From the IMG/VR virus record IMGVR_UViG_3300001589_007665, positions 1-64,000 of that record: a DNA stretch of 64,000 nucleotides. One strand, written 5' to 3'. A program made the position numbers and the translations under genes. The DNA comes from a virus. The notes below the pieces were generated by a model. That model was not told the DNA's origin. It made no database searches and saw only the letters and a list, made by a program, of their open reading frames with translations. Shown here one piece after another: positions 757-54,871 of the stretch. Each line of letters begins with the position of its first letter. The stretch's first letter is position 1.

Positions 757-3700
757 ATGCCAAGAAGAATAACAGAAAACGGACAATCTTATCTATTATA
801 TGACGACTGTGAAGAGTATATTTATATTGGAAATGAGCCAGCTTGGAGAAACGGAGTTTTTTCAGACGTCAAGTTAGACAAATGTTGTGAAGGGCAAATT
901 TTAGATAGTGTTCCTGTAACAGCAACTCCAACACCTACAGTCACACCAACAGTTACTCCTAGTGTGACTTCTACAGCTACTCCTACGGTAACACCAACTG
1001 TTACTGCGACACCAACTATAACACCAACAGTTACTCCGACGATATCTGTTACTCCTAGTGTTACTCCAACAATTTCTGTAACTCCTTCAATAACCCCAAC
1101 AATTAGTTTAACTCCATCTGTAACTGCTACCGTGACTGTTACTCCTACTCTTACTATTTCTAATACTCCGACACTCACTCCTACTGTTAGCAATACTCCT
1201 ACTAATACTCCCACAATTAGTCTAACTCCCACTTTGTCTGCAACACCAACATTAACACCAACTCCTACAGTAACTCCTGTTACATTATCAGATGATAGCG
1301 GTATAGAGAAAATAGTATTAGCAGACGGTGCTGAAGAATATGAGATTATTAGTATAGATGTTGGAAATAGCACATCTATGATAGCAGGAGATGAGCATAT
1401 ACTTGCTGTTGTTGCACCTATTAATGATTATTCTTTTAATAACACCATCGACGCATCATATAATAAAGTATTAAAGTCCGATAATTATTTAACTGATTAT
1501 ACTATAGAAAATAAACTTATGACAGAAGCAAATGCTGCTATTTGGAATAATAGTGAGTATCCTTCTAGTAAAATTTCTAGTGTTCAGTATAATAATGATT
1601 TAAATAGATGGTTTATAGGAACAAATAGTCAAGCAGGTACTTCTATAGTATTTTTATATAGTATAGATTCGGCTTCAAATTATTTTATTCCACAAGGAGA
1701 TGTTATCGGTGGAGCAGGATCTATATGTGGTCCAACCAAAGTATATAGTGTAGATAATAAAACATTTTTATTCAATGATAGTAAAATTTATAGTTATACT
1801 ACATCAGACAAAACAAAAACAGGAAATGAATTAAGCTATCTATATTCCGAAGAAATTTTTAATTGTGAAAATAGTAATAGAATACAGTGCGGTGTTGACA
1901 GAACAGCATTGGGCAGTAATGTTAGTGTAAATTACAGACTGCCTTTAGTAAATAGTTCTAACAATCAATTATTTATACATCATGTGCCAGGAACAGGCAA
2001 TAATACAGTAGCAATAGACGGGATTGATTACGATTGTCCTGGTGTGATTGGTAATTATAGAGGATATAGTTTACATAGTTATGAATTTAATTTTACTATT
2101 AGCAGAATACAAATAAGTACAGAAAGTAATCAATTCTCTATTGATATTAAGTTTAATAAAGATATTAATTTTGATTATACTAATTTAGCACTATTGTATG
2201 GAAATAATAACATAACCATCGATCCTGCAAAAATTATATTAAATAAAATTTCAAACAAAAATTACTCAATAATTATTAACGACACGGATCTTATTGACGA
2301 TATCAATACACTACCTTATCATTTTAGACTTTCTAATTTATCCACTGGTAATACTTCGGATATTCCTAATGCTTTCATAGTACCTATATACGAAGTAGCA
2401 TCAGGTGAGGGTGGAAAAACTTATAACTATAATGCTGTTCAAGATGTTCGTTATACTAATTCAAATAGAGATAAAGTACCTGTTTTTTCTATTAATGCTT
2501 TAGATTTTATTACAGATAAAGACAAGACATTTGATTTTTATGTAGTGGCAGATACTACTTGTGATAGTGGATATAAATATACTATCATGGACAAGACTAA
2601 TGCTGGCAGTGGTTTAGATTATAATTTCTGTGTTTCTAGTTTAGAAGGAATAACTAGCACAGGAGAAGTCAAAGTTGTTCTTGCTAAAGGCGCAGAAATT
2701 TATATGTTGGTTCAACATACGTCTGATCCAGTAACAAAACCATATGATTTTTCTGAAGTTTACACATATAGTTTATTCAAGTCTAATAGTTTATTACCTA
2801 ATGGCTTTAGTTTAGTTGAAGACAATATTAAAGTTTTAAGAAAATTTGCTGGTCTTAATAGAGATATGACTAATGTTTGGAGTAATAGTTGTTTTATTAA
2901 TAGTTCTTATATGATAATAGGTGTTCCTAATAGTAGTACTGTTTTACGAATAAATTATAACGCCTCTCAAGTTATTGCTCCTCCTACTCCTACTCCGACT
3001 GTTACAACTACGGTTACAGCATCACCAGGACGTAGTCCAACACCAACTACTACTGGAACTCCAACTTCAACTCCTACTCCAACCGTAACCCTAACTACAG
3101 GAGCTAGTCCAACACCTACTCCTGCCAATACTTCAACGCCTAACCCAACCCCTACGCACACTGCAACACCAAGCCCAACACCGAGTCTAACACCATACGG
3201 AAGTTCAGGATTTACTGATTGGTATGCAGCTGGACCTCCTGCTAATCAACAAAACTGGATAGCAATTAGTAGTTCAGACACTGGACAAACTGTATTAGCA
3301 GCAGATGCTAATGATGCTAATTTATATATATCTACAGATTATGGTGCTACTTTTAACACTTCTAATGTTGGATCAAACACTCTTTGGAAAGATGTTGCCG
3401 TTTCTAATGACGGAGCTATAATGTATGCCTCTACTATCTTGGCTTACGGAGCAAGTCTTTATAAGTCTGTAGATGGTGGTGCTACGTGGAGTAATAATTT
3501 CTATAGTCCTATTGCAAGCACTTTAGGTTATACTAATAGTTTTATGGATGCATATTCGAGCAACATAGAAGATTTAGAAATTAGCGGAGATGGCAAACTT
3601 GTACTTGCCGATAATAAGAGTTTTAATGATTTAAGTAGAAGTAATAACTATGGAGGAGAGCCTGGTTCCGCTCATTCATCACCCGGTGAATTGCATGGTA

Positions 3701-4344
3701 TGGCCGTATCAAGAAATGGCAACTTGTATTATTACCTAACTAGATACCCAACAAGTGGGGGTAATGAAATAGTTAATATATATAGAGTTGCAGCTACTAG
3801 CCATAGTCCTAGCATAGTACTTAGTAGTGTCATTAGAGAATCAGGCGTTCCTGTTAAACATGGACTTGCAACCAATAATGACGGATCTTGTATTGTAACT
3901 AATATTGGTAGTGAAGTTTATGTGTCTAGAGATTCTGGAACATCATGGACCATGATCTTAGATAAAACATGGGATTATAATCAGTCTGATTGGCAGTGCG
4001 ACAGCTGTATCTTGGATTATTTCAAAATGTCTGATGATGGTTTAACTATAGCAGCTATTAGCGAAGGTGGTAGTGTCAATCCACAAATCTTAGAATACAA
4101 TAGTTCAGAAGACTCTTGGACACTCAAAGATACAGATTTAAAGACTGATGAAATTTCTACTTTCTCATTAGCAGAAGCCTCGAACAAAATTGCCATGACA
4201 TTTTCTGGAGATGCAAAGCGTTTGGCCGTAATAACCAATGATCCGACAACAGGACAAGGCTATATTTGGAGATCACAAAGCACAACTAACCTATATACAT
4301 TACAATTATTATCGCAATCTGATAATTTTAATGACATACCATAG
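757..4344 (+). CDS. Large virion/fibre-type protein with Thr-Pro linkers and C-terminal Asp-box (BNR) propeller
   Basis: This 1195-residue protein has a short N-terminal domain (about 1-52, with a CC pair), a Thr/Pro/Val/Ser linker (about 54-175), a middle domain of unknown type (about 176-740), a second Thr/Pro linker (about 742-813) and a C-terminal domain. The C-terminal domain carries Asp-box (BNR) motifs of the S-x-D-x-G-x-x-W type: KSVDGGATWSN, VSRDSGTSWTM and the looser STDYGATFN. Asp-box repeats form beta-propellers in sialidases, sortilin-like proteins and glycan-binding proteins, so receptor or glycan binding on the virion is plausible. No catalytic residues for a sialidase can be assigned. 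No signal peptide is seen. A conserved promoter-like motif lies 48 bases upstream. The start is the first ATG; its Shine-Dalgarno is weak. Confidence 0.85.
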   Translation: MPRRITENGQSYLLYDDCEEYIYIGNEPAWRNGVFSDVKLDKCCEGQILDSVPVTATPTPTVTPTVTPSVTSTATPTVTPTVTATPTITPTVTPTISVTPSVTPTISVTPSITPTISLTPSVTATVTVTPTLTISNTPTLTPTVSNTPTNTPTISLTPTLSATPTLTPTPTVTPVTLSDDSGIEKIVLADGAEEYEIISIDVGNSTSMIAGDEHILAVVAPINDYSFNNTIDASYNKVLKSDNYLTDYTIENKLMTEANAAIWNNSEYPSSKISSVQYNNDLNRWFIGTNSQAGTSIVFLYSIDSASNYFIPQGDVIGGAGSICGPTKVYSVDNKTFLFNDSKIYSYTTSDKTKTGNELSYLYSEEIFNCENSNRIQCGVDRTALGSNVSVNYRLPLVNSSNNQLFIHHVPGTGNNTVAIDGIDYDCPGVIGNYRGYSLHSYEFNFTISRIQISTESNQFSIDIKFNKDINFDYTNLALLYGNNNITIDPAKIILNKISNKNYSIIINDTDLIDDINTLPYHFRLSNLSTGNTSDIPNAFIVPIYEVASGEGGKTYNYNAVQDVRYTNSNRDKVPVFSINALDFITDKDKTFDFYVVADTTCDSGYKYTIMDKTNAGSGLDYNFCVSSLEGITSTGEVKVVLAKGAEIYMLVQHTSDPVTKPYDFSEVYTYSLFKSNSLLPNGFSLVEDNIKVLRKFAGLNRDMTNVWSNSCFINSSYMIIGVPNSSTVLRINYNASQVIAPPTPTPTVTTTVTASPGRSPTPTTTGTPTSTPTPTVTLTTGASPTPTPANTSTPNPTPTHTATPSPTPSLTPYGSSGFTDWYAAGPPANQQNWIAISSSDTGQTVLAADANDANLYISTDYGATFNTSNVGSNTLWKDVAVSNDGAIMYASTILAYGASLYKSVDGGATWSNNFYSPIASTLGYTNSFMDAYSSNIEDLEISGDGKLVLADNKSFNDLSRSNNYGGEPGSAHSSPGELHGMAVSRNGNLYYYLTRYPTSGGNEIVNIYRVAATSHSPSIVLSSVIRESGVPVKHGLATNNDGSCIVTNIGSEVYVSRDSGTSWTMILDKTWDYNQSDWQCDSCILDYFKMSDDGLTIAAISEGGSVNPQILEYNSSEDSWTLKDTDLKTDEISTFSLAEASNKIAMTFSGDAKRLAVITNDPTTGQGYIWRSQSTTNLYTLQLLSQSDNFNDIP
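916..1284 (+). repeat. Thr-Pro-Thr-Val linker array 1
   Basis: About 120 codons encode an array of TPT, TVTPT, ISVTPS and similar units inside the 757-4344 gene. All four Thr codons and three Pro codons are mixed, so the array is much more regular in protein than in DNA. It is probably an extended, mucin-like spacer. Confidence 0.85.
2980..3195 (+). repeat. Thr-Pro linker array 2
   Basis: This second array in the 757-4344 gene separates the middle domain from the Asp-box propeller. It is richer in TPTPT and SPTPT units and contains a few Gly and Asn. Confidence 0.85.
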
Positions 4345-4413: not shown

Positions 4414-7400
4414 ATGAATTATAATAAGCCTGATTTAATATGGTTCTCCAAGTTTAATACTGCATCACCACTTACTCAAACTAATAAAAAAAGATTTATT
4501 GTTCGATTGTCTGAAAAAGCAGTCAACAATATGGACAATATTAATGATGTTCAAAAAATTATTGGTCCAGACTATAGGGTGTTGTGCGGTTTGGGTCATC
4601 CAGGAATGGTTGTCGTAGAGACTAATGTAGCTAATACATTTAATACATTATCTAATAATTCTAATATTGAATATGTAGAAGAAGATCAAACTATTCAATT
4701 AGACGATCCTGTTGTAAGACCACAAGATATAAAAAAAAATAATTTTAATGCTCTCTCTAGCGACCCTAATGATCCAGACTTTGATAAATTATATGGCTTG
4801 AATCCAAATGAAGGCAATTATCATATTAACTGTAAAGATGTTTGGATTACCAATAAGGGAAGTCATAGTATTGTTGTTGGAGTGGTCGATACTGGCATAG
4901 ATTATAATCATCAAGATTTAAGAGTAAATATGTGGACCAATACTGCTGAAACAAGCAACGGTATTGATAGTGACAATAATGGTTATGTAGATGATATACA
5001 TGGAATAAATGCTATAACAAATTCTGGCGATCCTATGGATGATCAAAGTCATGGAACGCATTGTGCTGGAACTATTGGTGCTGTTGGAAATAATAGCACA
5101 GGCGTCGTCGGAGTTAACTGGAATATACAATTAATGGCATTGAAGTTTTTACGTGCTGATGGTGGTGGTAATTCATCTGATGCTATCAAATGTGTTGCTT
5201 ATGCAGAATTAATGAAAAGCAGAGGAGTAAATATAAAAGCTACTAGTAACAGTTGGGGAGGAGGAGTTTTTTCTCAAGGTATGTTTGATGTAATTTCATC
5301 TGCTTGGACCAATGAAGATATGCTTTTTATTGCAGCAGCTGGTAATGACACTGCAAACACAGATATTGGAACAGTTTATCCTCAAGGATATAATATTCCT
5401 GGTATTATTTCTGTGGGATCAAGCACTCAGCAAGGTACTGTATCAGGCTTCAGTAACTATGGAGCAACAAGTGTTGATGTGGCCGCACCAGGATCGGCTA
5501 TTTATTCTACGATTCCAGTAGTAACTAATTACGGTTACAAAAGCGGTACAAGCATGGCCTGTCCTCATGTTGCTGGTGCTGTGGCTTTATTGTATAGTAT
5601 ACATCCTAACGCTACTGGTACACAAATTAAAAATGCTCTTATAAATACTTGTCAAAAAGTTACTGCTTGGTCTGGCAAATGTGTTAGTGAAGGCATTATT
5701 GATGTTAAAGCAGCGTCTGCTAGTTTAGCGGGCTCTCTTGTTACTCCTACGCCTACAGAAACTATTAGGGTCACTCAAACAGCTACTCCCAGGATCACGC
5801 CTCCTCCAACCAATACTCCTCAAGTCACCGCTACTATAACACCAACACAAACCCCAAGTTATTTTCCTAGAAAAGAAGTAGGAGGATTAGGTCCATATGG
5901 CTCTGACTATATCATTAAATTTAAATTACCTGGATTTGAAAACTATATAGGCGAAAAACTTTCTGTTAAAATCGGTGGAGAAAAATGTTGCACCATTGAC
6001 GGTATTATAAATTACTCTTTTCCAGCATTTGTTGATCCGATAGTTCCCGCAACACCAACGCCGACATCTACTCCTAGTTCAACTCCAACTCCTACTCCGA
6101 CACATACCATAACTCCTACAGCAACTGTTACTTCAACAAATACTGCCACTCCTACTGTTACTCCTACAATTAGTGTTACGCCAAGCGTTACTCCTACAGT
6201 TAGTGTTACCCCTAGCATTACTCCTACTTATACGCCAACTTCTACAGTAACTCCGACGATTAGTGTTACTCCAACTAATACTCCGTCGATTACTCCGACA
6301 ATATCTTTGACTCCTTCTATCACACCAACTATTAGTGTGACACCTTCCATTACTCCTACTATATCTTTAACTCCAAGTGTTACTCCTACCTTGTCTCTTA
6401 CTGTTAGTCCTACGCCAACAGTTACTCCTACTATTACTCTTACTGCAAGCAACACTCCTACTCCAACACCAACACCAAGTATTACTCCGACTCATACCCC
6501 AACACCAACGGTAACACCAAGTGTCACTCCGACTACTAGTGCAACACCGACACTAACTCCTACATTAAGTTTAACAGCTCCATTTGAAGCTGATGTGTCT
6601 TATAGACAGGGTCATGATTATATTAATAATCATGGCTATGATGCTGCTTTCAATTCAGACAAAACATTATTATTTACTTGTGATAGAATTACAGGTGTTA
6701 ACATGTATGATATATCTGATAAATATCATCCTGTACATACATTTACTTATGATTTAAGATATTATGTAGAGAGTGTAAACTATAGTGATTCTTATAATTT
6801 CCTGGCTGTTGCTAATTCAGGATACGGCACACATATTTTTGGAGTAGAAAACAATATAGCACATCCAAAACCAAAAGTTTTACAGCTTAAATCTACTGCT
6901 TCTAGCAAACCAGATGGATATGCTCGCAACAGAATATATCATAGACATTCTATCTTAGGTACAGGTAGTGACGCTAGATATATCTATGTTGCGGATCAAG
7001 AGTATGGACTATTAATATATAGAATAAATCCTACAGATCTTACTGCTGCTCCATTACTAAGTGCTTCATTAAGATATATTGATCCTGTAGACGCATATTC
7101 TCGTTCTCTGTTGTGGAGATGCTACATTTCTCCTAGCGATCCTAATTTGTTATATGTAGGTACTCAAAGAGGTGTACTATTATTAGTAGATATTACTGAC
7201 AGATCAAGTCCTGTATTAAAATCTTCTTTGATTACTTTTGCAAATACTAGGTGGCCAAATGGCTACGGGCAGATATACGATATTGTAGAAGATAGTATTG
7301 ATAGTGATATTGTTTATGTTGCAAATAGTGCTTACGCAATTCTGGCGGTAGACAAAAAGAACACTAGTGCTCCAACAATTATTGGCAGTTATGTTAAATC

Positions 7401-7431
7401 CGGTATTACTTCGATTTCTATTAAGGAATAA
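4414..7431 (+). CDS. Subtilisin-like (S8) protease with Thr-Pro linkers and LVIVD-type propeller
   Basis: This 1005-residue protein begins with an inhibitor-I9-like propeptide region (about 1-115), followed by a peptidase S8 domain (about 130-440). The full triad is visible: Asp159 in VVDTGIDYNH, His213 in SHGTHCAG and Ser380 in GTSMACPHVAGA. SNSWGGG and the oxyanion motif AAAGND are also present, so an active serine protease is expected. A Thr/Pro linker (443-480), a small domain with a CC pair (482-540), a long Thr/Pro linker (545-725) and an LVIVD-like beta-propeller (726-1005, with VDITDRSSPV) follow. It lacks a visible signal peptide, consistent with a virion component rather than a bacterial secreted enzyme. 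Likely roles are cleavage of host surface proteins or maturation of neighbouring fibres. The next gene is a paralogue of its N-terminal half. Confidence 0.9.
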   Translation: MNYNKPDLIWFSKFNTASPLTQTNKKRFIVRLSEKAVNNMDNINDVQKIIGPDYRVLCGLGHPGMVVVETNVANTFNTLSNNSNIEYVEEDQTIQLDDPVVRPQDIKKNNFNALSSDPNDPDFDKLYGLNPNEGNYHINCKDVWITNKGSHSIVVGVVDTGIDYNHQDLRVNMWTNTAETSNGIDSDNNGYVDDIHGINAITNSGDPMDDQSHGTHCAGTIGAVGNNSTGVVGVNWNIQLMALKFLRADGGGNSSDAIKCVAYAELMKSRGVNIKATSNSWGGGVFSQGMFDVISSAWTNEDMLFIAAAGNDTANTDIGTVYPQGYNIPGIISVGSSTQQGTVSGFSNYGATSVDVAAPGSAIYSTIPVVTNYGYKSGTSMACPHVAGAVALLYSIHPNATGTQIKNALINTCQKVTAWSGKCVSEGIIDVKAASASLAGSLVTPTPTETIRVTQTATPRITPPPTNTPQVTATITPTQTPSYFPRKEVGGLGPYGSDYIIKFKLPGFENYIGEKLSVKIGGEKCCTIDGIINYSFPAFVDPIVPATPTPTSTPSSTPTPTPTHTITPTATVTSTNTATPTVTPTISVTPSVTPTVSVTPSITPTYTPTSTVTPTISVTPTNTPSITPTISLTPSITPTISVTPSITPTISLTPSVTPTLSLTVSPTPTVTPTITLTASNTPTPTPTPSITPTHTPTPTVTPSVTPTTSATPTLTPTLSLTAPFEADVSYRQGHDYINNHGYDAAFNSDKTLLFTCDRITGVNMYDISDKYHPVHTFTYDLRYYVESVNYSDSYNFLAVANSGYGTHIFGVENNIAHPKPKVLQLKSTASSKPDGYARNRIYHRHSILGTGSDARYIYVADQEYGLLIYRINPTDLTAAPLLSASLRYIDPVDAYSRSLLWRCYISPSDPNLLYVGTQRGVLLLVDITDRSSPVLKSSLITFANTRWPNGYGQIYDIVEDSIDSDIVYVANSAYAILAVDKKNTSAPTIIGSYVKSGITSISIKE
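5740..5855 (+). repeat. Thr-Pro linker array in subtilase gene, first
   Basis: A short Thr/Pro-rich stretch (TPTPT, TPPPTNTP, TATITPT) lies immediately after the S8 catalytic domain. Confidence 0.8.
6045..6575 (+). repeat. Thr-Pro-Val linker array in subtilase gene, second
   Basis: One of the longest arrays in the window, about 177 codons of TPTISVTPS, TPTVTPT and similar units. It joins the protease part to the C-terminal propeller. Synonymous codons are heavily mixed. Confidence 0.85.
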
Positions 7432-7433
7432 AA

Positions 7434-10400
7434 ATGAAAGTTAACTATGATGTTCCTAGTCAAGAATGGTTCGAATCTTTTATTACTGTAAACAGTATTT
7501 CTGAAGATACGGACAATTACTGGATAGTACGATTAACAGAAAAGGCTGTCTTAAATATGACTAATGTTTCTGATGTTAGTACTATCTTAGGATCTGGCTG
7601 GACACCATTATATTGCTTGGGATTACCTGGTTTATATTCTGTTCATAAATCTGCCGATGCTGTTAATTTATCAGGTAACGACAGTATTCAATATTTTTAT
7701 GCGGACAAACCTACTCCTAGTAATGATGTTGGTGTTTTGAATCAGCTTTATTCTCCAGAAGAAGAAGATCTGGAAGATGATATAAGCAGGATGGACGAAG
7801 ATACTATAGTTAATTTTGTTGCTGGTGTTCCTCAAGATCCATATTGGAATATGCAATGGGCATTAAATCCTGATCTTAGTCCATATGACATTAATGTTAC
7901 TGCACTTTGGCAGCAAGGTCGGAACATAACAACGCCAACATATATTGGTATTTTGTCAGAAGGCTATGATGCTCCGCAACCAGATGACATAAGCAGTGCG
8001 TATCGATACAATTCTCGTGCGGAAGACATTTCAGATAATCCAGATTCTAACAGAATATATAATGGTAGCATCAAAGGCAATGCTATTCAAGGCATTACTG
8101 GTGCTCGTCATGATGATGAGTGTGCTATTGCTGGTATTTGTCCAGGAGCTGTCCTACTTAGTGTTGCGACAACAACACTTGGTACAGGGTGTGCTCAAGA
8201 TTTTGCTATCATACGAGGTTTGACATTTATCTTAAATAAGAAAATTGAGGATGGTTTGAGTCTCCCGGTTATTGTATGGGATGGTCAAAGGGGTTGTAAT
8301 AGTGGGAGGTCTGATGGTATTAGAGATGCTATTAGGGCATGTCAAAGGCAGGAAATATTAATTGTTGTACCTGCTGAAGACGGAAATCCCTACGACAGGA
8401 GGGAAGAAAGCGGCAAAAACATAACAGATATTGCTGATCAATTTACCGCTATAACCTACGCAGATCTTGTAGTAACATCAATAAATAGAGAAGGTGAGAT
8501 GCCACGCACAGCTAATTGGGGTAGAACTGCAGTAGACATTAGTGCTCCAGGAGAAAGTGTAATTGCTAGTCATGGTCTTTGCGGAATACAGAATGTTTCA
8601 GGTACTTGGGTAGCTGCGGCTCATGTTGCTGGTGCTATTGCTCTTTTATATGAAGTAACAGGAAAAACAGGAAACGAAGTTACTCAGGCGATCATCTCAT
8701 CAGCTAAACAACTCAATGCTCATATGGCCAAGCCTATTAAATCAGGGGGCATGTTAGATGTGCAGGCAGCTTCTGCATATTTAGGCAACCCCATTTCTCC
8801 TCCACCGCCTCCTCCTCCTCCTACTCCTCCACCTCCTGGATTAGAGCCTTGTTTAGTAGATTCTAAATTTATTAATAATGGGTCGCCTTTTAGCGGTTTT
8901 ACAAATGACGCAATAATGAATTTAAAAGGATCTTATGATGGTAAAACACTCATTATGGCAGCTGAGGGTTCTGATACATCAGGCAGCGCAAACTCGTTGG
9001 GTTTTTATTCTGTGAGAGCAGATATTGAAACGAAGTTTCAAAAAATACCTACTGAAAATTTTAGCAATAGTGACAATAACAATCCAAAAAGTCCGGGATA
9101 TGCTGCATTTATAAATGCTTTTGATATATCTGATAATGGTAATAATTTAGTTGTTAGTAATTCATTTACTGTAGATAGCAGATTTGGGTATATTGAGTCT
9201 TTGTGCATTTCAGATAATGGCTATATCTATATGTATACAGGCGCTGCTTCTAGAGAATATGATAAAGTTTCCATATTAGTATCTACAGATAGAGGTGTTA
9301 ATTGGACAGAAAAAGTTATATTTCCTTTTGATGCAGATAATACGCCATACAGAGACCAAATATTACTTTCTAAAGATTATGGTAATACTTGGACGTCTGT
9401 AGCTGTTCCAGATAAATGGGTTAGTAATTATTATTACGGTGTTGACGGCTTTTATGGTCCAGAAACTACTACAAAAAGATGTCAGATAACACCGCCGCTG
9501 ATGATAAAACATTTATGTTCTACTAATTTAATATGTTCTGACGATGGAACAAGAGCAATGTTTCTATTAACTTATGGGGGCACTCCTTATAATCATATGG
9601 TAGCTAGAGGCAGGGCTGGTGGTAATAATGGGAGTTCTGCATACATTAGCTGGTTTTATGGACATCACCACAGTAATTATACACAAGGACATACGTCTTT
9701 ATTCATGAGTACTGACAATTCTGGAAATTATTGGAAACAAGGATCTGCAGATATGAAATTGCGATCTTCGCAGTCTGATCCTGGATATGCATTAGCTAAT
9801 GATTATGACGGAGGATTAGATAGCAACCGAGAGTATCAGGAAACTTTGTACAGTCCAGAATCATCAGTCCAAGAACCTATTCATAAAGTATACAAGTTAA
9901 TTAAAATGTCTCCTAATCTAGACGCTTTTGGTTTAGTAGCGACTGTAAAGTATAGTGGTCGCCAGACGACCTTGCCGCCTGCCTCGGAAACTCAAGACAT
10001 TTTTGGGCGAGTTGTTGTTAGTAAAATTATATATACTACAGATGGCGGAGAAACTTTTAAGCGAACTAAACATTTATTTGAAGCTGATTCAGATACTAGG
10101 CATTACATTAGTAAGGTATACTCTGATTCGGGGATAGAATCGGGATTGGTGCCATGTAGAAATTTAAATAAAATTAATACATCTTATGTAGATAGTAATG
10201 GCAATTTTACTATTTGTGCTCTTGTTAATAAAGTTGTGTTTCAACCCCCAGTTCCACCACCACCTCCACCACCTCCACCACCACCAGACAGTCCGCCAGT
10301 ACCAACGCCTGAAGTACCGATTTGGCCGGGGCCTCCTTTTGGAGGTCCAGGTGACGGAAACACTACAGTTGATGGAACATGGCAAGATTTTGGTGTCATG

Positions 10401-13400
10401 CCTGTGGTAGCTATGACAGAAGAAGGAAGTCTTGATGACTTTAATACTGCTAATCCTATTGTTTATGTTTTAAAAGATGATATAGGAAACCAATCAAATC
10501 AAGCTTGTTATATTTCTGGTTCTGGTAGAAATTTTCATGTTTTTACTTCTTTATGGTATAAGAATTTAGACAACTGTGCCTCCCTACCTTTAAGAACGGG
10601 CATTACTGCTACCAAGACGAATTCTTTAGAAAATCTATCTTTAGTTAATAGTATGACAGATTCTGATATATTTCCTCATGGACATAATCCTTCTCACTCA
10701 TCCCCGTTAAAGAATAGAACAGAGCAAGGAAGAGGTGTCAGGCAGCTTATAACATCTAAAGACAGTAACGAAATGGTTATGCTTTACACAGACACAACCA
10801 CAGAAAGTGGATGCGGGGATAATACTAATTTCAATAGGCAATATTTGCTTTATTCTAGTAATTCTGGAGTTACTTGGACTCAAAAATTAATTCATTTCGC
10901 AAGAAACTATCGAGGTCAAAGACCTGGGTCAAAATATACAAAGTCGTATCATTTTGATACCATGGGTATATACTCATCAAATTCTGGTAAATATTTACTT
11001 TATATTGGTCCCGGACCTAAGATAACCGACCCGGATGCCGGTGATATCTACGAATGTAGTAATCCTATTGTTGACCCTGCTGATACATATTGGATACATT
11101 GGTCCTCAGATTATGGCAAGACCTGGGATGAAAAACAGTCTCAGCAAATAAGGGATACAGAACGAAATATAACGAATGAACGATTAGAAAGATATGTTAA
11201 TAATGTTCTTACCACACCAAAGACTAGGAAAGAGTGGGTACCAAACTCATCCGGCCTAAGCAGCATTTCAATTAGAGATGATGGTACCGTGTTTGGCATC
11301 AGCCAAACTCAGGACATATATAGATCAAAATTTAGCGATTTCGGTACCACAACTTCTGCTAAATTAGGAGGTTCTTTCGTCAACGGATGGGATCAAATTG
11401 ATAGCTTTTCTCAGGTTATCAACCGAAGAGAACAGAAAGCTAATTACATACTAGCTTTGCCTAATAATAATGTAATAGTCGGTATTGGAGAACTCATCAG
11501 AGCCCCGAGTACCTCAAGGTCAATGCTGATACCCCATTTTTTCTTTATCTCTAATCAAGACGGAGCTGGAGGATGGAGACAGATGGGTTGGGACAGAAGT
11601 GATGATACGTCTTTGGCGGAATTTATTATTGGAGGATCAGCAAAGATCTTACCTATTGATATTGGAGATGGTAGAATTCGTTTCCTGGCCAAAAAATCAG
11701 ACCAGTTATCTAACTATAAGCTATACTCTTGTTCTTATGACGGCAAACAATTTATAGAAACCGATATAGATTGGACTAAACATCCGTATCATGAGAGAGA
11801 CTGGTTTGCTAAAACTTTCTTTCTTGGTGGTTCTCCAAAAATGCCCACCCGGTCCAATAATAGGCAACCATCCGGTTCTATACCGAGACGAAATATTATG
11901 TTCACTTATAAAAGTGGCATTATTACATATAATAAAGCATCTAAACATGTTTATATAGGAGTTTTAGATGACTCTTATCAAAACGAAACACTATTTAAGT
12001 TTAAATTAATGTCGGATACCTTATCTTTTGTAGAGTCTGCATCATGTATTCCTGCTATAAATACCAAACTTAATACTTCACAGGAATCAGCATCTCTGCG
12101 TGTTTATGACAGAGCTCATTTTCATGGAGATATAGCAGTAGATATAAATGATAATTTATTCTTATCTATGCCATCTAGTTATGGTAAAAGTCCCGTATTG
12201 CTCAAAACTGGAACGGTTGCACCTGCTCCACCGCCTCCACCACCGCCTCCACCACCTGGTTCACCGCCACCTCCTCCTCCACCTGGTTCTCCGCCACCTC
12301 CGCCTCCACCTGGTTCACCGCCACCTCCACCTCCACCTGGTTCACCGCCACCTCCGCCTCCACCTCCTCCTGTAAATCCTACAGATCCACATAATAAAAA
12401 AATATATGCATTGGATACTAGAGGACAGATACAAGTACTAGATATTGCTAATTTAATAGATATCAAAATAGATGCCATAAGTAAAATTAATTATGCTGAT
12501 GCAAATTATTATAATGTAGTCGTTGATCAAAGTCCTAATACATTTGATTTTATTTATGCTAGTAATTATAGATATGATTTGGACGTAGTATTATTTAATA
12601 AATCAAGTGCTAGTTCTTTAGGCATTGATGCTAATCAATTTGGAAACCTGATTAGTTTAAGATTATATCATTTGCGTATAGTCTGGAATCAAAAAGTTGA
12701 TGCTTTTAATGTTATAGATAAAAACAGAGGAAGCATAATATTAAAACACGGTAATACAATTACAAAATTAAAGAATACAGTATTGTCTCCAGTATATGGT
12801 ACTGACGGTAAAGCTAGAGAATTTATTCTTTCTACTACTACTAAATTTCCTGGAGCGATTAAGCCAGCAACTGCGCCTTCTACGGGGAAAAGTTCATTGC
12901 CTGTTGCTTATGTTCCTTATAATAAAGAAAAGGTTAGCTTAGTCATCATGCCTCAAGGAGGAGATGTCAGAAATCCTTTAAGAAGAATCAAGAACTCTAA
13001 CAGAGAAAGTCATCAATTAGGTTCTAGTTTGACGTTAGAACTAGATAGTAATTACATAAATCAATGTCATACATTTGGTAAAAATGGCACTGCTCCAGAG
13101 ATTGCAGGTATTGGTGATAATACCGGTGGTGGCTTAGGTAAAATGTTAAGAGATCGTTGTGCCGGTACTAAAGCCGACTATAGTTCTTATGGAATATCTA
13201 TATTTAAATCTACTGCTGATGGAGTCTTGCCTCCACGACCTGGTATGAGCACTTCAGCCAACCAACCTCTTACTGGCGACGAATTCCCCCATAGAGACAC
13301 TATGAAGGCCGTAGCAGGTAAGTATCAAACAATTACTGTTAATAATGATGGTCATGCGTATTATACTGGTAATTATAGATTCGGACCTCTTAAAACTGGT

Positions 13401-15743
13401 GATATCATACCATTTACTGCAACAGGTGGAGATGAGTATGATTTAGATGACGGAATACATAAGATTCATGTGTTTAAGTCTAATGGCACTTTCAGTATTA
13501 CTTCTAGTCCAGCAGACAGTGACATAGAAATTCTTGTTGTTGCTGGTGGTGGCGGTGGCGGTATCCTAGGAGATAAGGGCAGTGCTGGTGGTGGTGCTGG
13601 CGGGTTAATATCCGAAACCAATATAGATATGCCAGCTGGTCAATATAATATTTCTGTAGGAGATGGCGGTACCGTGGCTGTTAATGGACAAAACAGTTCA
13701 ATAATTGGTTTAGATGTTACATATACAGCTATTGGCGGTGGTGCTGGAGGTAATGGTGAAGGACAACCTAATAAACCAGGAAAAGCTGGGGGTAGTGGCG
13801 GTGGTGGAGGTTTCCAATATCGTGAAAGAAATAATGATTTCCATGGTCCGGGTGGAGCAGGTGTTCCCGGACAAGGATATAGTGGAGGCAATGGTAGTCC
13901 AGGTAATTATATCGGGGGAGGTGGAGGAGGTGGTGCTGGTGGACCAGGAGCTTATCCATCAGATTGTGGAGGAGGTCGAAGACGAGGAGGACAGGGTGGC
14001 ACAGGTAAAGAAAATTTAATTGCTAATGGCGCTAGTGTTAACTTTGGTGATATTAATCATCCTAACTGGTATGCTGGTGGTGGATCTGGCCATGGTCAAC
14101 AGTGTCAGTCTGGTGGATCAAAAGGCGGCGGAGCAGGAACAGGTGGTATTGGACAAGTCAACACAGGAGGTGGTGGAGGAGCAACGCAAGCTGGTGGTAG
14201 TGGAATTGTCATTATTAAATATAAGAAAACAACTATTGAAGCCCCTTATGACGCATCCGCATTTAGAAAAATACCTATTTATAAATCAGACCTTAATACC
14301 TTAATCAGTGATGATGTAAACATTGTAGATGCTGCTATTATGACATATAATCATGGTAATCAAAATCAAATCAATGATTTTGCATCATATATGTGTTACT
14401 TACTAGATTCAGAAGGTCAACTGTATGAGTTTGGTTATAATGTATCTGATCCAACTAATCATAAATACAAGTGTCGTAAGATAGATCAGTTTTTAAAGCA
14501 TAATACAGCACAGTATGCTCCTAATGAAATTACTAGCATATCTGCGGGTCATGATCACATGGTCGTTATTAGAAATGGATTTGCATATGGATTAGGTTCT
14601 GATAAGTATGGGCAATTAGGACAGGGAGGAGCAGGATATTATTCTCAACTTACTCTTCTTAATTCTAGAAATGATTTCATCAAGGCCGCTTGTGGTCCTT
14701 ATCATACAATGCTTCTTAATAGCAAAGGCAACATATTTGTTACTGGACGTAATGATGTTGGTCAATTAGGTCTTGCTAATACAGAAAACAGAAATACTTT
14801 TACTACAATAGCAGATTATGCTGGCAGATGGATCGACATCGAAGCATGTTGTGTGGGTGATTATTTTAATGTCTCGGATGCTCCACCTCCGCCACCTCCT
14901 CCTCCTCCCCCAGGTACTATTGGTGGTAGACCAATAGGGTCGAGAAGTGTGTCATCTACCTCGATAGAAAGACAAAAAACACATTGTCTGGGAATAATAG
15001 AAACTAGACAGCTTTTTGCTTGGGGAGACAATAGTTATGGACAGTGCGGAATTGGTCTTGGCTATGATGGATTAGACATTCCAGAACCACCATTTATTGG
15101 TAGCAATACAGACTATACTCGTCCAATTCTAAGACCTGCTCATGGACAGATACCATACATGTATGCATCTATTCCTGGTATCATTACTAATGGATCTGAT
15201 CTTATTACTAAAGTTCCGATTAGATTTGCTAATTATGTTAAATATGGTACTACTAATCCAGTACTCAATTTTTGTGATCAATTTACACATAATGGAGCAA
15301 ACTATAAACCATTTCCATTTGGACAGGTGGGTAGTGATGGCATTAAAAAATATACAAAGATTCAAGAAATTATTATAGACCCAAATGATGACACATACAT
15401 AACTCTTAGATTGAATTTCAGACCTGGTGAAGTACCGGGAACAAATACATTACCAACTGACAATTCTATATATGCCAGTGGTAAAGAAAGAACATTTACT
15501 AATGCATTATTTTATGCACTAAGACCAGAAGTTGGCAGAATGGCTGCAGGCAGACACACTTCGTTGTTTTTAAATAAGCTTAACAACTTGTACTATTGTG
15601 GTAATCCAAACAGTATTGTATGCACGGCTAGTGCTGGTTCTAAAGAACCATTTGCTACTTTACTTGGTTTGGAAGGTAATTACCATAAGGTTGCTGCTGG
15701 TTTAAGTCATTCTGTAGTAATTACCAGATCTCCAACAAGTTAG
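7434..15743 (+). CDS. Giant multidomain virion protein: degenerate subtilase, Asp-box, Gly-rich and RCC1 domains
   Basis: This 2769-residue protein starts two bases after the subtilase gene. Residues 1-450 align by eye with the neighbouring subtilase (WFESF/WFSKF, IVRLTEKAV/IVRLSEKAV, CLGLPG/CGLGHPG), but the triad is broken: Asp becomes Ser175 (IGILSEGYD), His226 remains (RHDDECAIAG) and Ser becomes Trp392 (GTWVAAAHVAGA). It is therefore a pseudoprotease. Poly-Pro linkers lie near residues 453-467, 938-953, 1599-1647 and 2483-2493. Between them are Asp-box modules (STDRGVNWTEK, LSKDYGNTWTS, SSNSGVTWTQK, SSDYGKTWDEK), a beta-rich module, a Gly-rich adhesin-like domain (about 2035-2260) and RCC1-type repeats (about 2350-2769; DKYGQLGQGG, NDVGQLGL, GDNSYGQCGIG). 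The architecture suggests a long tail fibre or receptor-binding protein. The function of each module is inferred. Confidence 0.88.
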   Translation: MKVNYDVPSQEWFESFITVNSISEDTDNYWIVRLTEKAVLNMTNVSDVSTILGSGWTPLYCLGLPGLYSVHKSADAVNLSGNDSIQYFYADKPTPSNDVGVLNQLYSPEEEDLEDDISRMDEDTIVNFVAGVPQDPYWNMQWALNPDLSPYDINVTALWQQGRNITTPTYIGILSEGYDAPQPDDISSAYRYNSRAEDISDNPDSNRIYNGSIKGNAIQGITGARHDDECAIAGICPGAVLLSVATTTLGTGCAQDFAIIRGLTFILNKKIEDGLSLPVIVWDGQRGCNSGRSDGIRDAIRACQRQEILIVVPAEDGNPYDRREESGKNITDIADQFTAITYADLVVTSINREGEMPRTANWGRTAVDISAPGESVIASHGLCGIQNVSGTWVAAAHVAGAIALLYEVTGKTGNEVTQAIISSAKQLNAHMAKPIKSGGMLDVQAASAYLGNPISPPPPPPPPTPPPPGLEPCLVDSKFINNGSPFSGFTNDAIMNLKGSYDGKTLIMAAEGSDTSGSANSLGFYSVRADIETKFQKIPTENFSNSDNNNPKSPGYAAFINAFDISDNGNNLVVSNSFTVDSRFGYIESLCISDNGYIYMYTGAASREYDKVSILVSTDRGVNWTEKVIFPFDADNTPYRDQILLSKDYGNTWTSVAVPDKWVSNYYYGVDGFYGPETTTKRCQITPPLMIKHLCSTNLICSDDGTRAMFLLTYGGTPYNHMVARGRAGGNNGSSAYISWFYGHHHSNYTQGHTSLFMSTDNSGNYWKQGSADMKLRSSQSDPGYALANDYDGGLDSNREYQETLYSPESSVQEPIHKVYKLIKMSPNLDAFGLVATVKYSGRQTTLPPASETQDIFGRVVVSKIIYTTDGGETFKRTKHLFEADSDTRHYISKVYSDSGIESGLVPCRNLNKINTSYVDSNGNFTICALVNKVVFQPPVPPPPPPPPPPPDSPPVPTPEVPIWPGPPFGGPGDGNTTVDGTWQDFGVMPVVAMTEEGSLDDFNTANPIVYVLKDDIGNQSNQACYISGSGRNFHVFTSLWYKNLDNCASLPLRTGITATKTNSLENLSLVNSMTDSDIFPHGHNPSHSSPLKNRTEQGRGVRQLITSKDSNEMVMLYTDTTTESGCGDNTNFNRQYLLYSSNSGVTWTQKLIHFARNYRGQRPGSKYTKSYHFDTMGIYSSNSGKYLLYIGPGPKITDPDAGDIYECSNPIVDPADTYWIHWSSDYGKTWDEKQSQQIRDTERNITNERLERYVNNVLTTPKTRKEWVPNSSGLSSISIRDDGTVFGISQTQDIYRSKFSDFGTTTSAKLGGSFVNGWDQIDSFSQVINRREQKANYILALPNNNVIVGIGELIRAPSTSRSMLIPHFFFISNQDGAGGWRQMGWDRSDDTSLAEFIIGGSAKILPIDIGDGRIRFLAKKSDQLSNYKLYSCSYDGKQFIETDIDWTKHPYHERDWFAKTFFLGGSPKMPTRSNNRQPSGSIPRRNIMFTYKSGIITYNKASKHVYIGVLDDSYQNETLFKFKLMSDTLSFVESASCIPAINTKLNTSQESASLRVYDRAHFHGDIAVDINDNLFLSMPSSYGKSPVLLKTGTVAPAPPPPPPPPPPGSPPPPPPPGSPPPPPPPGSPPPPPPPGSPPPPPPPPPVNPTDPHNKKIYALDTRGQIQVLDIANLIDIKIDAISKINYADANYYNVVVDQSPNTFDFIYASNYRYDLDVVLFNKSSASSLGIDANQFGNLISLRLYHLRIVWNQKVDAFNVIDKNRGSIILKHGNTITKLKNTVLSPVYGTDGKAREFILSTTTKFPGAIKPATAPSTGKSSLPVAYVPYNKEKVSLVIMPQGGDVRNPLRRIKNSNRESHQLGSSLTLELDSNYINQCHTFGKNGTAPEIAGIGDNTGGGLGKMLRDRCAGTKADYSSYGISIFKSTADGVLPPRPGMSTSANQPLTGDEFPHRDTMKAVAGKYQTITVNNDGHAYYTGNYRFGPLKTGDIIPFTATGGDEYDLDDGIHKIHVFKSNGTFSITSSPADSDIEILVVAGGGGGGILGDKGSAGGGAGGLISETNIDMPAGQYNISVGDGGTVAVNGQNSSIIGLDVTYTAIGGGAGGNGEGQPNKPGKAGGSGGGGGFQYRERNNDFHGPGGAGVPGQGYSGGNGSPGNYIGGGGGGGAGGPGAYPSDCGGGRRRGGQGGTGKENLIANGASVNFGDINHPNWYAGGGSGHGQQCQSGGSKGGGAGTGGIGQVNTGGGGGATQAGGSGIVIIKYKKTTIEAPYDASAFRKIPIYKSDLNTLISDDVNIVDAAIMTYNHGNQNQINDFASYMCYLLDSEGQLYEFGYNVSDPTNHKYKCRKIDQFLKHNTAQYAPNEITSISAGHDHMVVIRNGFAYGLGSDKYGQLGQGGAGYYSQLTLLNSRNDFIKAACGPYHTMLLNSKGNIFVTGRNDVGQLGLANTENRNTFTTIADYAGRWIDIEACCVGDYFNVSDAPPPPPPPPPPGTIGGRPIGSRSVSSTSIERQKTHCLGIIETRQLFAWGDNSYGQCGIGLGYDGLDIPEPPFIGSNTDYTRPILRPAHGQIPYMYASIPGIITNGSDLITKVPIRFANYVKYGTTNPVLNFCDQFTHNGANYKPFPFGQVGSDGIKKYTKIQEIIIDPNDDTYITLRLNFRPGEVPGTNTLPTDNSIYASGKERTFTNALFYALRPEVGRMAAGRHTSLFLNKLNNLYYCGNPNSIVCTASAGSKEPFATLLGLEGNYHKVAAGLSHSVVITRSPTS
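12258..12365 (+). repeat. Four 27-base tandem repeats encoding GSPPPPPPP
   Basis: Four in-frame 27-base units start at 12258, 12285, 12312 and 12339, each encoding Gly-Ser followed by seven prolines. They differ by a few synonymous changes. They sit in a longer poly-Pro linker (about 12226-12373) of the 2769-residue gene. Copy number could change by recombination without breaking the frame. Confidence 0.9.
13540..14215 (+). repeat. Glycine-rich domain coding region
   Basis: In-frame Gly-rich stretches ([31 protein letters not shown]) resemble the Gly-rich domain of phage adhesins, in which loops of glycine runs form a polyproline-II-like receptor-binding tip. The closing motif GGSGIVIIKY is typical of such domains. 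Assignment is by pattern only. Confidence 0.7.
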
Positions 15744-18208: not shown

Positions 18209-20803
18209 ATGTCTCAATCATTTAAAATTATTTTTAGCGGCATAACACAAGCTGGAGATTCTAGTACAGTACCAGAATTTTCTGCCAGTTCTATTTTGAA
18301 TTACGATATCGCACCAAATAATAATAATGATATGGTTGTGATAGGTTCTACAAATTTAAATAGTTATTTTATAGACAAAAGACCAAACATAGGTAATACA
18401 AACCATAGTTATAATTATCCTAATACGCAGGTATATACAGATGTTAATTTTGCTTGTTCTACTGATTGGGATTTTAGTGGAGTAATTAGAGAGGGTCTTG
18501 TTAGAGCAGGACCATTAACAAAAATTACAGGACTTTCATCAGGAGCTGTTAGATCTGGAAGTACTATTTATCTATATAAAAATGGTGATGACGTTTATTT
18601 TCAAGGAGGTCAGGGAGCAGCTTTTGGGGCGAATAATGTTGAATTTTCGGATAATGAAATAATATTTGTACAATTTTATCATTTCTTCAGAACGGGAAAT
18701 AATTTTGAACAAGAAAAATATTTAGAATCAATTATTACAGGATATTATAAAGTTTCTTCAATAGAAGAGAGTTCGCCAGCAGGCAACTCTTTGATACATA
18801 TTACTTGTCCAGATGATAATGTTGTTAATTTTACTAATCCTGTAGATATTGTAGGCGGTTATGATATCGGATCATTAACTGATAGTGTTGATTATCCTAT
18901 AAATTTTGGTGGTAGTAATATACACTATTCTCATGAAAGTAGTGCTGGCAGGAAAGAGAGTAATTCTCCTAAGGTTGCTGCTATACCCCGATATAGAAGT
19001 GGTTTGTCGGTATGCAAATTAGACAGTCCACAAACCGATTTTGATATAGAAAATCCATCTAGCATTTCTACTATTTTAGAAAACTATATTTTAGGAGGCA
19101 ACTATACTTCTAATAGCAGCAGAGTTATTGATATTGTATCATATGATCGTGCTGGTGTTTTGTTTGTAGCAGTCAGGGTTTCTGGCGGTGTGCAAATTCA
19201 TATTGTTGATAGCACCACTCTCGCTTTTCAAACTATCAGGAGGTTTCCGTTACTAAAAGATTCTGTCTTCCTTAAAGCAGATAAGAGCTTTAAATTAGAA
19301 ATACCCAACGCTATTACAGGAACAAGAACTGAAAATACTTATCCTTCACTACCAATACAGCCAGACAAATTAGTTGCTTCTTATGCTAGTGTCGATGGGA
19401 CTAACGGTATTAGAATTTACGATCTATCCAGTTTAGAAGATTTTGTTCCTATCATACCATCTGCTACTCCTACCCCAACGCCAACACTTACTCCTACAAT
19501 TACCGTTACTCCTACAGTAACACCAAGTATGCCAGTAACACCATCTAATACTCCCACACTTACTGCTACTTCTACACCTACTCCAACACCTACTCCCAGC
19601 GATAAGGCCCAGTATAGATATACCAGAAAAAGCATAGTATTAGAAAATTTAGACTGTGGAGAGTATGAGTTAACCATAGATTATATGTCTGCTCAATCCG
19701 GACCAGTTGATGTACAGATATTAGATAGTGACGATATAGAAAAAGGACAGTTTGATAATATAATTAAATTTACTCCACAAAATATACAAAATTATCGAAG
19801 AGCAAGTGTATCGGGCATTTCAGAAAAAATAGCTAGCGATGAAAAATATAATCAAAGAATATTTTATACTGTATATCATAGTATTAATATTGATCAAGCT
19901 ATTTTAAAATTTACTCTTAAACATTTGCAATCAGGCAAAGAAAGAGTTGAAACAAGAATAATAGAATGTGAAGGAGTAAGTAATTGCTTAGAAGATCGCG
20001 TTGAATGCGTAAAACAAGATATACAAAAATTTATACAGTTGCCTGACGGTTCTTTTGAGATGTACGTAAAACTTAATCCTCCTCCAACAGTTAGAGAAGA
20101 CGAAAAAGATGTAGCAAAAGCACTTAAAGAAATTATTAATAAAAGCAAGTGTTGCGACATAGCTTTGCAAGTAGAAGACATTCTAGATTGGTATGAAATA
20201 GACCGTACGAATATTACACTGTGTGATCCATATACCGGTGTTCCCACACCTACTCCTAGCGTAACACCAACAATTACGCCTACGCCATCTGTTACGTTAA
20301 CATCCACACCAACTGCAACATCAACTCCAACACCTACCCCTACTACAACTGATTCGGTTATTCCTTGTGGAGAACTAATACAAGAAGGTGGTCAAGGATT
20401 TTTTACATATGATGTTCCATTATTACAAGAAGGAGGAATCATAATATTTGATGTTGATCCCGATGAGGTGCCAGATAAAATAGAATTAATTCATAATGGT
20501 GTTACCAAAGCTACTAGCAGCATGACTAATGATGGTAATTATGGACCATTTGATAGTACTGATGATCCGTTTGCTACACAATTTATTGGTACTTCAAAAG
20601 GAGAAATACCAGATAGGATAGCACAGTTTAAATCTTCTACAGGAATAAGTTCTTATACGATATCTTCTGGATATAAACAGACGTTATGGTGGACATATAC
20701 TTCATCAGATTGGTCTACTGCGGTGTATGCAACTATTAGAGTTGGAGCTCCGTCTAGTGGAACTAAATGGAAACTTAATAGAAGATGTGAAGGAGAATCT
20801 TAA
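18209..20803 (+). CDS. Virion-type protein with two Thr-Pro linkers
   Basis: This 864-residue protein has an N-terminal region of about 415 residues without a recognised family, then a Thr/Pro linker (about 418-465). A middle domain of about 215 residues follows ([24 protein letters not shown] and a Cys pair at KCCDIAL). After a second Thr/Pro linker (about 678-713) comes a C-terminal beta-rich domain ([23 protein letters not shown]). The C-terminal domain looks like a small jelly-roll or lectin-like fold, but this is an impression only. The start ATG has an AAGGA Shine-Dalgarno nine bases upstream. It lies 12 bases after the preceding gene and 4 bases before the next, so it belongs to the same unit. 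Its role on the virion cannot be named. Confidence 0.8.
19461..19600 (+). repeat. Thr-Pro linker array
   Basis: About 46 codons of [17 protein letters not shown] and similar units lie in the 18209-20803 gene. A second, shorter array lies at about 20241-20350 in the same gene. Confidence 0.8.
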
Positions 20804-20807
20804 AGAT

Positions 20808-23800
20808 ATGACCGATTATAAAAAACAAAGCTATCATGGGACTCCACCTCCGCCACCTCCACCACCTCCGCCATCGTCTCCACCACCACCTCTTCCACCT
20901 CCGCCACCACCTCCGCCTCCGCCATCATCTCCGCCACCACCCCCACCTCTTCCTCCACCTCCTGGGGTTAGTCCTAGTCCTACTCCTACTAATGCCAACA
21001 CGATTGCTGGTGCTATAGATGTTGTTATTTGTATAGATACTAGTTTTAAGTATCCATTACAGAATTGGACACAATTTAAAGATGAGTTATATAAATTTAT
21101 TTATGACACTAATAGCAGAGCAGATTTTGCTAACGATAAAGTAAGAATTGGTATCACTACCAACTTTAATGAATATCCTCTGACCTCAAACTATAATGCT
21201 TTATTACAAAATCTAAATAATATTTCTTTTGATTCGCCGCCACCGCCTTTCCCTCCTCCTCCTCCCGGCGTTGAATTTCCTAAGTTTTATACATTTCGCT
21301 TAAAACATCAACTGCAAAAAGCAAAAACACAACTAAACAATTCAAAGATTTGTAATAAATTAATCGTTGTTGCTACTCCTGCTTTCAGTACAGACATTGT
21401 ACAAGAATCACTAGCTATCGACGAAGCAAAAGCAATTAATAAGTTAACAGTAAATGATGGAACATCTTACTATCCTTATAGTATTAAGATGATTAGCGCA
21501 TATAGTCCTTTAAGTAAATATCCAAAAACGCCATCAAATAATACTAAATTACAAATTATATATGACCAATCTACAGCAAAAAATGGAGGAGCTTCGTGGT
21601 TACAATATGAAAATTTATGGAACTACGGCTATGGAACTAATAGTACTACCGGTATTAATACGGTGGTTCCGACTTTAAGATACTTTATCACAAATATGGT
21701 ATCAATATCTCCTACTCCTACTCCAACACCTACTCCTACAGCAACACCAATACCTTTGCCTGGGGGTATACCTAATAACATAGCAGGATGTAACGGCGAA
21801 GCATTTTTTGTAGATTGTCTTCCTACAGAAATAGCTGTTGGTAATTCTATAGATGACTATGCTAATATTTGGACACCTACTAATATTACGCTTAAAAAAG
21901 GCGACACAATCAGAATATCCTCTAGAGGATGTATGTGTTCAGAAAGCGTTGCTTTACAAAATATTAATAATCAAGATTTACAATTAGACGACGAAACACT
22001 AGTTCTTACAGAAGATGCTGATAGCTTATGTTCAGATTTTACAGGAGTACCAGGATCTAATGTTAATAGATTGTATGGTACGATTTTACCGGATGGAGTT
22101 AAGCCTAGTATTATTAATCAATTTGATATTGATCTTGGACCAAATATGGCAGGAGGAACAGCGGTAAGTAAAATAACTAAACCTGGAACTGGTAAATTGT
22201 GGTTGCTGCCTTATGCTCCAAGCTATAGTAACACAAATGCTTATAAATTTTGTGCTTCTATTTATGTAGACGCATTTTTTGCTACTCCAACAGCTACTCC
22301 AACAATCACCCCTACACCTACTGTCACTCCTAGTATTACTCCAACAATATCATTAACTCCATCTATTACTCCTTCTAATAGCCCAACTGTTACGGTTACT
22401 CCTACTGTTACACCTACACTCACAATTAGCAGTACTCCTACTTTGACCCCCACTCCTACTTTAGCGGGATGTAATCTTGAAATATCATCTTTAGCATTAA
22501 ATGATAGTAGTATGTCTATTATAGATGAGGGCCAAAACCATATATATGTTGCTGATGGTTATGACGGAATCAAAATAGTTAAGAATCATGGCAGTACTTT
22601 AGAATTATTAAAATACGTTAATAAAGGACAAAATATAGATAAAATAGCAGTTGACTTTAGTTTAAGAAAACTTTGTGCTGGCTACAATAAACAGATAGAT
22701 ATAATATCAATTGCAACTCCTGCTACGGCCTCCGTTTCTGCTACAATAGATCTGTCTTCTGTACTTACTGGTGGCACAGATAAAATAACAGATATTAAAG
22801 TTTTAGAGTCTCATAATACTGCTTATGTTATCTCTAAGCTAGGTGTATTTGTTGCGATTAATCTTGCTACTAATTCTATCATTAATAGTTCTACTTTAGT
22901 TAGTAGTGTTAATTACGATTTCAATTCACTAGACATAGCAACTTATCCTAATTATGATTATGTTTATGTAGCATTAAGAGGCTCTACAGGTGGAGGAATT
23001 TACAGAGTAGAAGCCGACACTCTTACAGTAAGTAATGTTACTTCAGTAGCTATATTAGCACCCAGTTCAACATATAGTTATGTGTATCCAAAATCTATAG
23101 CCGTTATTGGTAATTATGCTTATTTAGCGATTACTACGGGTAATGTAATAATATTCAAATTAGATCCTTTTACACTAATGTCTAGTCTTGAAATTAAGAC
23201 AGCTGGGACTGCTGTAAATATTACTAAGTCTTGGGAAGATCAATATCTATTTATTGCAGACTCTCAACAAGGATATACTATAGCTAATGTAGCAGATGTT
23301 GATAACATACATCTCAACTCTGTAGATAACCACAATACGGTTTCTAATGTCGATATGTCTTCTGATGCTACTAAATTAGTTTTGTCACAAGGATATAAAG
23401 GCATCACTGTTGTAAAAAGTTGTGTTGGTAATTTTAGACCTACTCCAACTTCAACCCCAACCCCTACAATTACGCCTACAAATACAGTTACTCCTACCGT
23501 CACTATTACTGCAACACCTACTGTTACACCTACTATTACTGCTACTCCTACGGTTACTCCATCTTTAACTCCTACAATTTCTTTAACACCATCTAATACT
23601 CCTACTAACACAGTTACTCCTACTATTCCAACAACATTGACACCAACCCCAACAAATACTCCTACTTCATCACCAACACCAACCCTAACAGTAACTTCGA
23701 GTGTTACTCCTACTGTTACTGCTACTAAGACACCAACACCAACATTAACGCCTACACATACAACCACTCCTACTATTACTCAAACGGTTACGCCAAGTCA

Positions 23801-52536: not shown

Positions 52537-52564
52537 ATTATAAAACCTAATCGGATATAGTCAA
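52537..52564 (-). promoter_or_regulatory. Sigma70-like promoter of ssb
   Basis: On the minus strand TTGACT, a 16-base spacer and a perfect TATAAT lie about 45 bases before the ssb start. The -35 box overlaps the end of the polymerase gene. This is the only sequence in the right half I can call a consensus-like host promoter. Confidence 0.8.
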
Positions 52565-54186: not shown

Positions 54187-54871
54187 TATTAAAGGCGTTT
54201 CTAAACTTAATCTTTGGTGACAAACTTCTAAATAGCTTCATAAATCTAATCAGTATTTCTGCAGTATCTTGTACATCCTTTAACGCATCATGGGCATTTT
54301 CTTTAGATAGTCCCATATAGTCTCTAAGATTATCAAGAGTATAATTTTTTAATTCGTTATTATTCTCAAACCAATAAAAAATAACATTCATGATATCTAA
54401 AACATCTCTAGGATAAAATATGTCAGTTTTGTTTTCCTTGTTGACATTTTTATATTTTTGACTTAACCTATTAATAATTGGTAGGTCAAATCTATTAATG
54501 TTGTAACCAGCAGCAATAGGCGCACTAAAGCAGTTCTTTTTAACAGATCTTGTATGGTACATTTGTAAATAACTTACAAACATTTTCCAAGCCTGTTCTT
54601 GCTTTTGATGCTTTTTCCAAGACTTGAGAACTTCCCCTTTGGTTGTTCCTTGGACTTTTGCATGAAAATCTAAAACATCAGAATCATCATAAGTATATTT
54701 AGGGTTATCTTGTAGTGCTTCAGGCTTTAAGCAAATATTAAATTCTGAATCTGGCACCACCTCCAATTTAATTGGATCAATAATAACGGCTGCAATCTGG
54801 ACAGGACTACAAACTTCTGGATTGCAACCGTCTGTTTCTAAATCAAAAACACAAATTTTTTGACTGTTAAT
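54179..54871 (-). CDS. DnaQ-like 3'-5' exonuclease (DEDDh), probable proofreading subunit
   Basis: Motifs are complete: ExoI VFDLETDG, ExoII AAGYNINRFDLPII and ExoIII NAHDALKDVQDTAEIL, with the His of the DEDDh type. It lies between the two polymerase III pieces, so proofreading for that polymerase is the likely job. The start is unusual. The first in-frame ATG (54934) has no Shine-Dalgarno and would overlap the preceding gene by 68 bases. An ATT at 54871 follows a strong GGAGGTG by four bases, overlaps the upstream stop codon (GATTAA) and begins the conserved domain INSQKICVFDLETDG. ATT is taken as the probable start, giving 230 residues. Confidence 0.88.
   Translation of the reverse strand: MNSQKICVFDLETDGCNPEVCSPVQIAAVIIDPIKLEVVPDSEFNICLKPEALQDNPKYTYDDSDVLDFHAKVQGTTKGEVLKSWKKHQKQEQAWKMFVSYLQMYHTRSVKKNCFSAPIAAGYNINRFDLPIINRLSQKYKNVNKENKTDIFYPRDVLDIMNVIFYWFENNNELKNYTLDNLRDYMGLSKENAHDALKDVQDTAEILIRFMKLFRSLSPKIKFRNAFNNV

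Follow-up and report, generated by a model that had tools for sequence, protein, structure and literature searches.

The question raised by this locus is why a phage would carry, side by side, an active-type subtilase and a dead copy of it at the heads of two long proteins. The window analyzed here is a 64-kb stretch (34% G+C) of the 78.9-kb uncultured virus record IMGVR_UViG_3300001589_007665, which belongs to a marine phage. The two genes, hereafter P1 and P2, are adjacent open reading frames in the same direction, 2 bases apart, and the P2 frame is uninterrupted. They are part of the following co-directional module.

757–4344, plus strand: gene 757, upstream in the conserved module, with a Thr-Pro stalk and BNR-type repeats; its synteny with the pair is conserved in two relatives
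4414–7431, plus strand: P1 (1005 aa; Pfam), with an I9-like prodomain, an active-type S8 subtilase domain, a Thr-Pro-rich stalk and an LVIVD-type propeller
7434–15743, plus strand: P2 (2769 aa; Pfam), with a prodomain, a dead S8 domain, Pro-rich linkers, and BNR-like, Gly-rich and RCC1 regions
15800–43890, plus strand: remaining co-directional structural module, with tail-fibre-like, FGE/lectin-like and large conserved proteins; gene order shared with relatives

P2 and its neighbors matched tail fibre PHROGs. Two large module genes had no match among sequenced phages, and the 64-kb window showed no recognizable gene for a tail sheath, portal or tape measure. Several module genes have Thr-Pro-rich stalk repeats in common (window 925–1222, 6058–6592, 19461–19588, 22280–23781 and 41522–41701; roughly 64–76% DNA identity), which have perhaps spread from gene to gene in the module. 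In the gene at 20727–24701, the FGE-sulfatase/lectin-like domain (window 23883–24650) has the halves of its profile swapped, positions 154–253 preceding 36–138, as in a circular permutation, and the same arrangement was seen in three related genomes (G001, G003 and G006, see below). No reverse transcriptase of a diversity-generating retroelement was found near the lectin-like genes in six records.

The initial annotation had proposed that the N-terminal ~450 residues of P1 and P2 are homologous. This was borne out by blastp, in which the two heads aligned from residue 1 over their first ~450 residues with 27% identity (E = 2e-26); the homology thus includes the prodomain, which had gone unmentioned. 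In hhalign, P2 matched a profile built from nine active subtilases, P1 among them, with Prob 99.9 and E = 1.8e-36. Against PF00082 (Peptidase_S8, Pfam gathering score of 21.8 bits), P1 scored 176.9 bits (E = 7e-52 for its S8 domain) and P2 38.8 bits. Since P2 alone exceeds the gathering score, the homology of the two heads is, at the sequence level, far above chance. The heads were divided as follows.

4483–4698, plus strand: P1 I9-like prodomain (residues 24–95), from model alignment with unprocessed pro-subtilisin E and Tk-subtilisin
4759–5733, plus strand: P1 S8 catalytic domain (residues 116–440; PF00082; Z 46 to deseasin MCP-01)
7509–7703, plus strand: P2 I9-like prodomain (residues 26–90), from model alignment with unprocessed pro-subtilisins
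7713–7826, plus strand: P2 acidic, expanded linker from the prodomain to the S8 domain (residues 94–131; pLDDT under 50)
7827–8789, plus strand: P2 pseudo-subtilase domain (residues 132–452; PF00082, 38.8 bits; Z 31 to pro-subtilisin E)

Pfam I9 listed no match for P1 or P2. In the AlphaFold models of both proteins the prodomain was packed on the S8 domain, and the alignment with unprocessed pro-subtilisins began at residues 24–26. The P1 model had a pLDDT of 79 and a pTM of 0.86; that of P2 was of moderate confidence (mean pLDDT 66, pTM 0.76) and was built on an alignment consisting mostly of active subtilases. Z scores to 3whi and to deseasin MCP-01 (PDB 3vv3) were 42.6 and 46.3 for P1, and 31.1 and 30.9 for P2, respectively. 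The P2 model could be aligned with unprocessed pro-subtilisin over residues 26–448 (Z 31, rmsd 3.3, 326 residues), and its prodomain-to-S8 linker is acidic and longer than that of P1. Low-confidence loops of P2 (192–215, 317–336 and 379–387) surround the old active site. Among solved structures, the P1 catalytic domain is closest to deseasin MCP-01, a marine bacterial S8 protease (E = 1.7e-90, Z 46); unlike P1, this bacterial enzyme has no phage stalk or propeller regions after it.

The residues at the catalytic positions of the two heads are listed below.

4888–4890, plus strand: P1 catalytic Asp159, codon GAT
5050–5052, plus strand: P1 catalytic His213, codon CAT
5551–5553, plus strand: P1 catalytic Ser380, codon AGC
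7956–7958, plus strand: P2 Ser175, codon TCA, at the catalytic Asp position
8073–8075, plus strand: P2 Lys214, codon AAA, at the catalytic His position
8607–8609, plus strand: P2 Trp392, codon TGG, at the catalytic Ser position

As first annotated, P1 keeps Asp159, His213 and Ser380 in the alignment; with Asn311 its active-site set is complete, and P1 is predicted to be an active-type S8 subtilase. For P2, the counterparts had been given as Ser175, His226 and Trp392. Three separate alignments (MAFFT, hhalign and hmmsearch) agreed on Ser175 in the Asp column and Trp392 in the Ser column, but the catalytic His column is occupied by Lys214, with His226 lying 12 residues downstream (MAFFT and hhalign). 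Since His226 is off the catalytic column, P2 retains no residue of the triad. The oxyanion motif was correctly described as disrupted, by a two-residue insertion (PAEDGNP versus AAAGND in P1), but the claimed loss of its Asn could not be upheld, as Asn318, beside the insertion, may still be aligned with the oxyanion Asn. The GTSMA motif is lost, and Val281 stands in the column of subtilisin Ser125 (P1 Ser280; MAFFT). Judged by its alignments, P2 is a non-peptidase homologue of S8, and the proposal that one copy had become a pseudoprotease was supported, with Ser175, Lys214 and Trp392 in place of the triad.

It is highly improbable that P2 has retained enzymatic activity through a rearranged active site, e.g., by using Ser175 and Lys214 as a dyad where Asp and His used to be. 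These two residues do occupy the Asp and His columns, which are neighbors in active subtilases, but Lys214 lies in a low-confidence loop (pLDDT <50), and P2 lacks both GTSMA and the equivalent of Ser125. To our knowledge, no subtilase works by a Ser-Lys dyad at these positions.

Relatives of the phage were reached via the DNA polymerase and the N-terminus of gene 757. Scans of viral contigs with P1 alone, P2 alone or the P1-P2 pairwise alignment gave no match, and phage records contained no relative of the P2 head and, for P1, distant subtilases only. Two divergent orthologues of the pair (~40–50%) were found, in the uncultured phages IMGVR_UViG_3300020474_002475 (G006) and IMGVR_UViG_3300017986_004441 (G034). 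Both have the order gene-757 homologue, P1 and P2, followed by the same downstream module as the window. The second genes are considered P2 orthologues because of this gene order and of their C-terminal region, which is ~37.5% identical to that of the window P2. The DNA polymerase III alpha of the window (52561–56920) is split into two genes that flank a 251-aa ORF, and in G006 the two halves are separated by a similar distance. A DNA polymerase 66% identical to that of the window is encoded by contig L129, which has been assigned to a Flavobacteriales genome bin; the bin is a weak hint of the host, and the contig may have been mis-binned.

In G006 and G034, the motifs DTG, HGTH or HGSH, AGND or AGNN, and GTSMA are present in P1 as well as in P2. 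Hence, the active/inactive pair that had been sought in related phages was found in neither, each carrying two intact triads, and the dead second copy is seen in the window only. These intact P2 triads indicate that the loss is lineage-specific and so far contradict a conserved active/dead partnership; the idea of the pair as a functional unit does not agree with relatives that have active-type residues in both copies. The closest genomes, G001 (100% identical where shared) and G003, start inside the gene at 20727–24701, downstream of the pair, and are therefore uninformative on the state of P2 there. Their contigs (L079 and L084) both start at window position ~20840, beside a poly-proline repeat, and this common start is probably an assembly break.

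The two relatives also bear on a reading in which the former substrate cleft of P2 would bind a host surface protein uncut, with P1 cutting it. The RCC1 and BNR-like repeats of P2 suit adhesion, and there is a precedent in CspC, a dead subtilase for which a new role in sensing has been proposed (PMC6636752). However, P2 gives no indication that cleft residues are conserved, and both copies look active in the relatives, so that no division of labor is conserved. We consider this reading unlikely. It is also quite unlikely that the P2 head is a repurposed pseudoprotease receptor-binding module, the captured surface protein being then cut by P1 in a two-protein, bind-and-cut tail device.

We have then examined the history of the two domains. 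In a tree built without the dead P2 copy, the P1s and active P2s formed one clade (support 96/95), apart from the bacterial MCP-01 and from free phage subtilases, in agreement with the common origin that had been put forward. The tree that included the dead domain was unresolved, owing to its long branch (~8.8 changes per column, poorly estimated). Catalytic-domain identities were 42–50% between P1s, 46% between active P2s and 41–43% between P1 and P2. This suggests that the duplication is older than the split of the three phages, the splitting order being read from these pairwise identities, as the tree gives no resolution of it. As far as can be seen, the duplication came first, and catalysis was lost from P2 later, in this lineage only.

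Most of the extra change in the window P2 is in the catalytic domain, which is 25.5–26.6% identical to its orthologues (G006 versus G034, 44.5%). For the C-terminus, the corresponding values were 37.5% and 48.3%, and for the prodomain 31.6–36.8% and 24.7%; the prodomain is without excess divergence. The positions otherwise invariant were lost in 11 of 19 cases in the active-site zone and in 10 of 23 elsewhere (Fisher p 0.54). A test for selective loss at the P2 active site was thus negative, the losses being scattered across the catalytic domain, a pattern that relaxed selection would produce while the fold is maintained. The triad is gone, yet many of the conserved glycines and core residues remain.

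These data can be read as simple decay: P1 made the P2 protease redundant, selection was relaxed, and the dead domain persists as a passenger whose only task is not to disrupt the long protein. The losses at invariant positions beyond the active site, and the restriction of the excess divergence to the catalytic domain, fit such an account. Against it, the frame has stayed open over 459 codons despite a long divergence (~8.8 changes per column, a poor estimate), the prodomain shows the level of conservation found between active copies, and the core glycines and the fold are retained. We regard simple decay as possible but doubtful.

The explanation that we favor, and consider fairly probable, is that P2 is a long adhesin of the tail module and has kept its N-terminal pro-subtilase as a folded, uncleaved and non-catalytic head, with proteolysis left to P1. 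P1 and P2 would be long adhesins, probably associated with the tail, that have long stood in tandem, each with a pro-subtilase head. In the ancestor both copies would have been active, presumably removing their own prodomains by self-cleavage before cutting a surface protein of the host or of the virion. In the window lineage, P2 lost all three triad residues while the S8 fold and the prodomain stayed. Because the triad is gone and both fold and prodomain are kept, the prodomain should remain covalently attached, the head forming a folded, non-catalytic N-terminus of the fibre, and proteolysis would be supplied by P1. The fold may nevertheless have been retained only because it opens a long essential frame.

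The self-processing and the structural role of the dead head are inferred, as is the tail location, the latter from the tail-fibre-like families in P2 and its neighbor, from an S8 protein beside neck genes in Prochlorococcus phage MED4-213, and from relative G004, in which another S8 gene lies near a probable tape measure (judged from sequence). Of the roles first suggested for the dead copy, a scaffold or structural one is our best guess, and no positive evidence was found for a regulatory partner.

T4-like cyanophages have comparable long S8-domain proteins, namely CPMG_00018 of MED4-213, which adjoins neck and tail genes, and a putative proximal tail fibre of S-CAM1. These are single copies, in contrast to P1/P2, and are too far from P1 for tblastn to link them. 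In Synechococcus phage S-CAM1 (L127, record 1964–2515), a partial S8-profile match has LESG where DTG is expected, and the protein is possibly another degenerate phage subtilase. Nothing directly relevant was found in the literature on virion subtilases.

The Csp subtilases of clostridia offer the closest evolutionary parallel. CspB is active, and CspA and CspC are dead in Clostridioides difficile, where two catalytic residues were lost in that lineage while other lineages keep intact copies; the CspC prodomain is retained uncleaved (PMC6636752). Like P1/P2, these are clustered pro-subtilase paralogues with catalytic loss in one lineage. They differ in being spore germination proteins with a jelly-roll insertion, whereas P1 and P2 are the heads of stalked proteins of 1000–2800 aa. 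The resemblance is one of evolutionary pattern, not of family membership.

The active/dead contrast within this single genome is not to be read as a functional pair. What the locus documents is the loss of catalysis in a phage pro-subtilase at the head of a very long protein of the tail module, beside active-looking syntenic orthologues, and it offers a natural active/dead comparison for asking what role protease heads have on phage particles.
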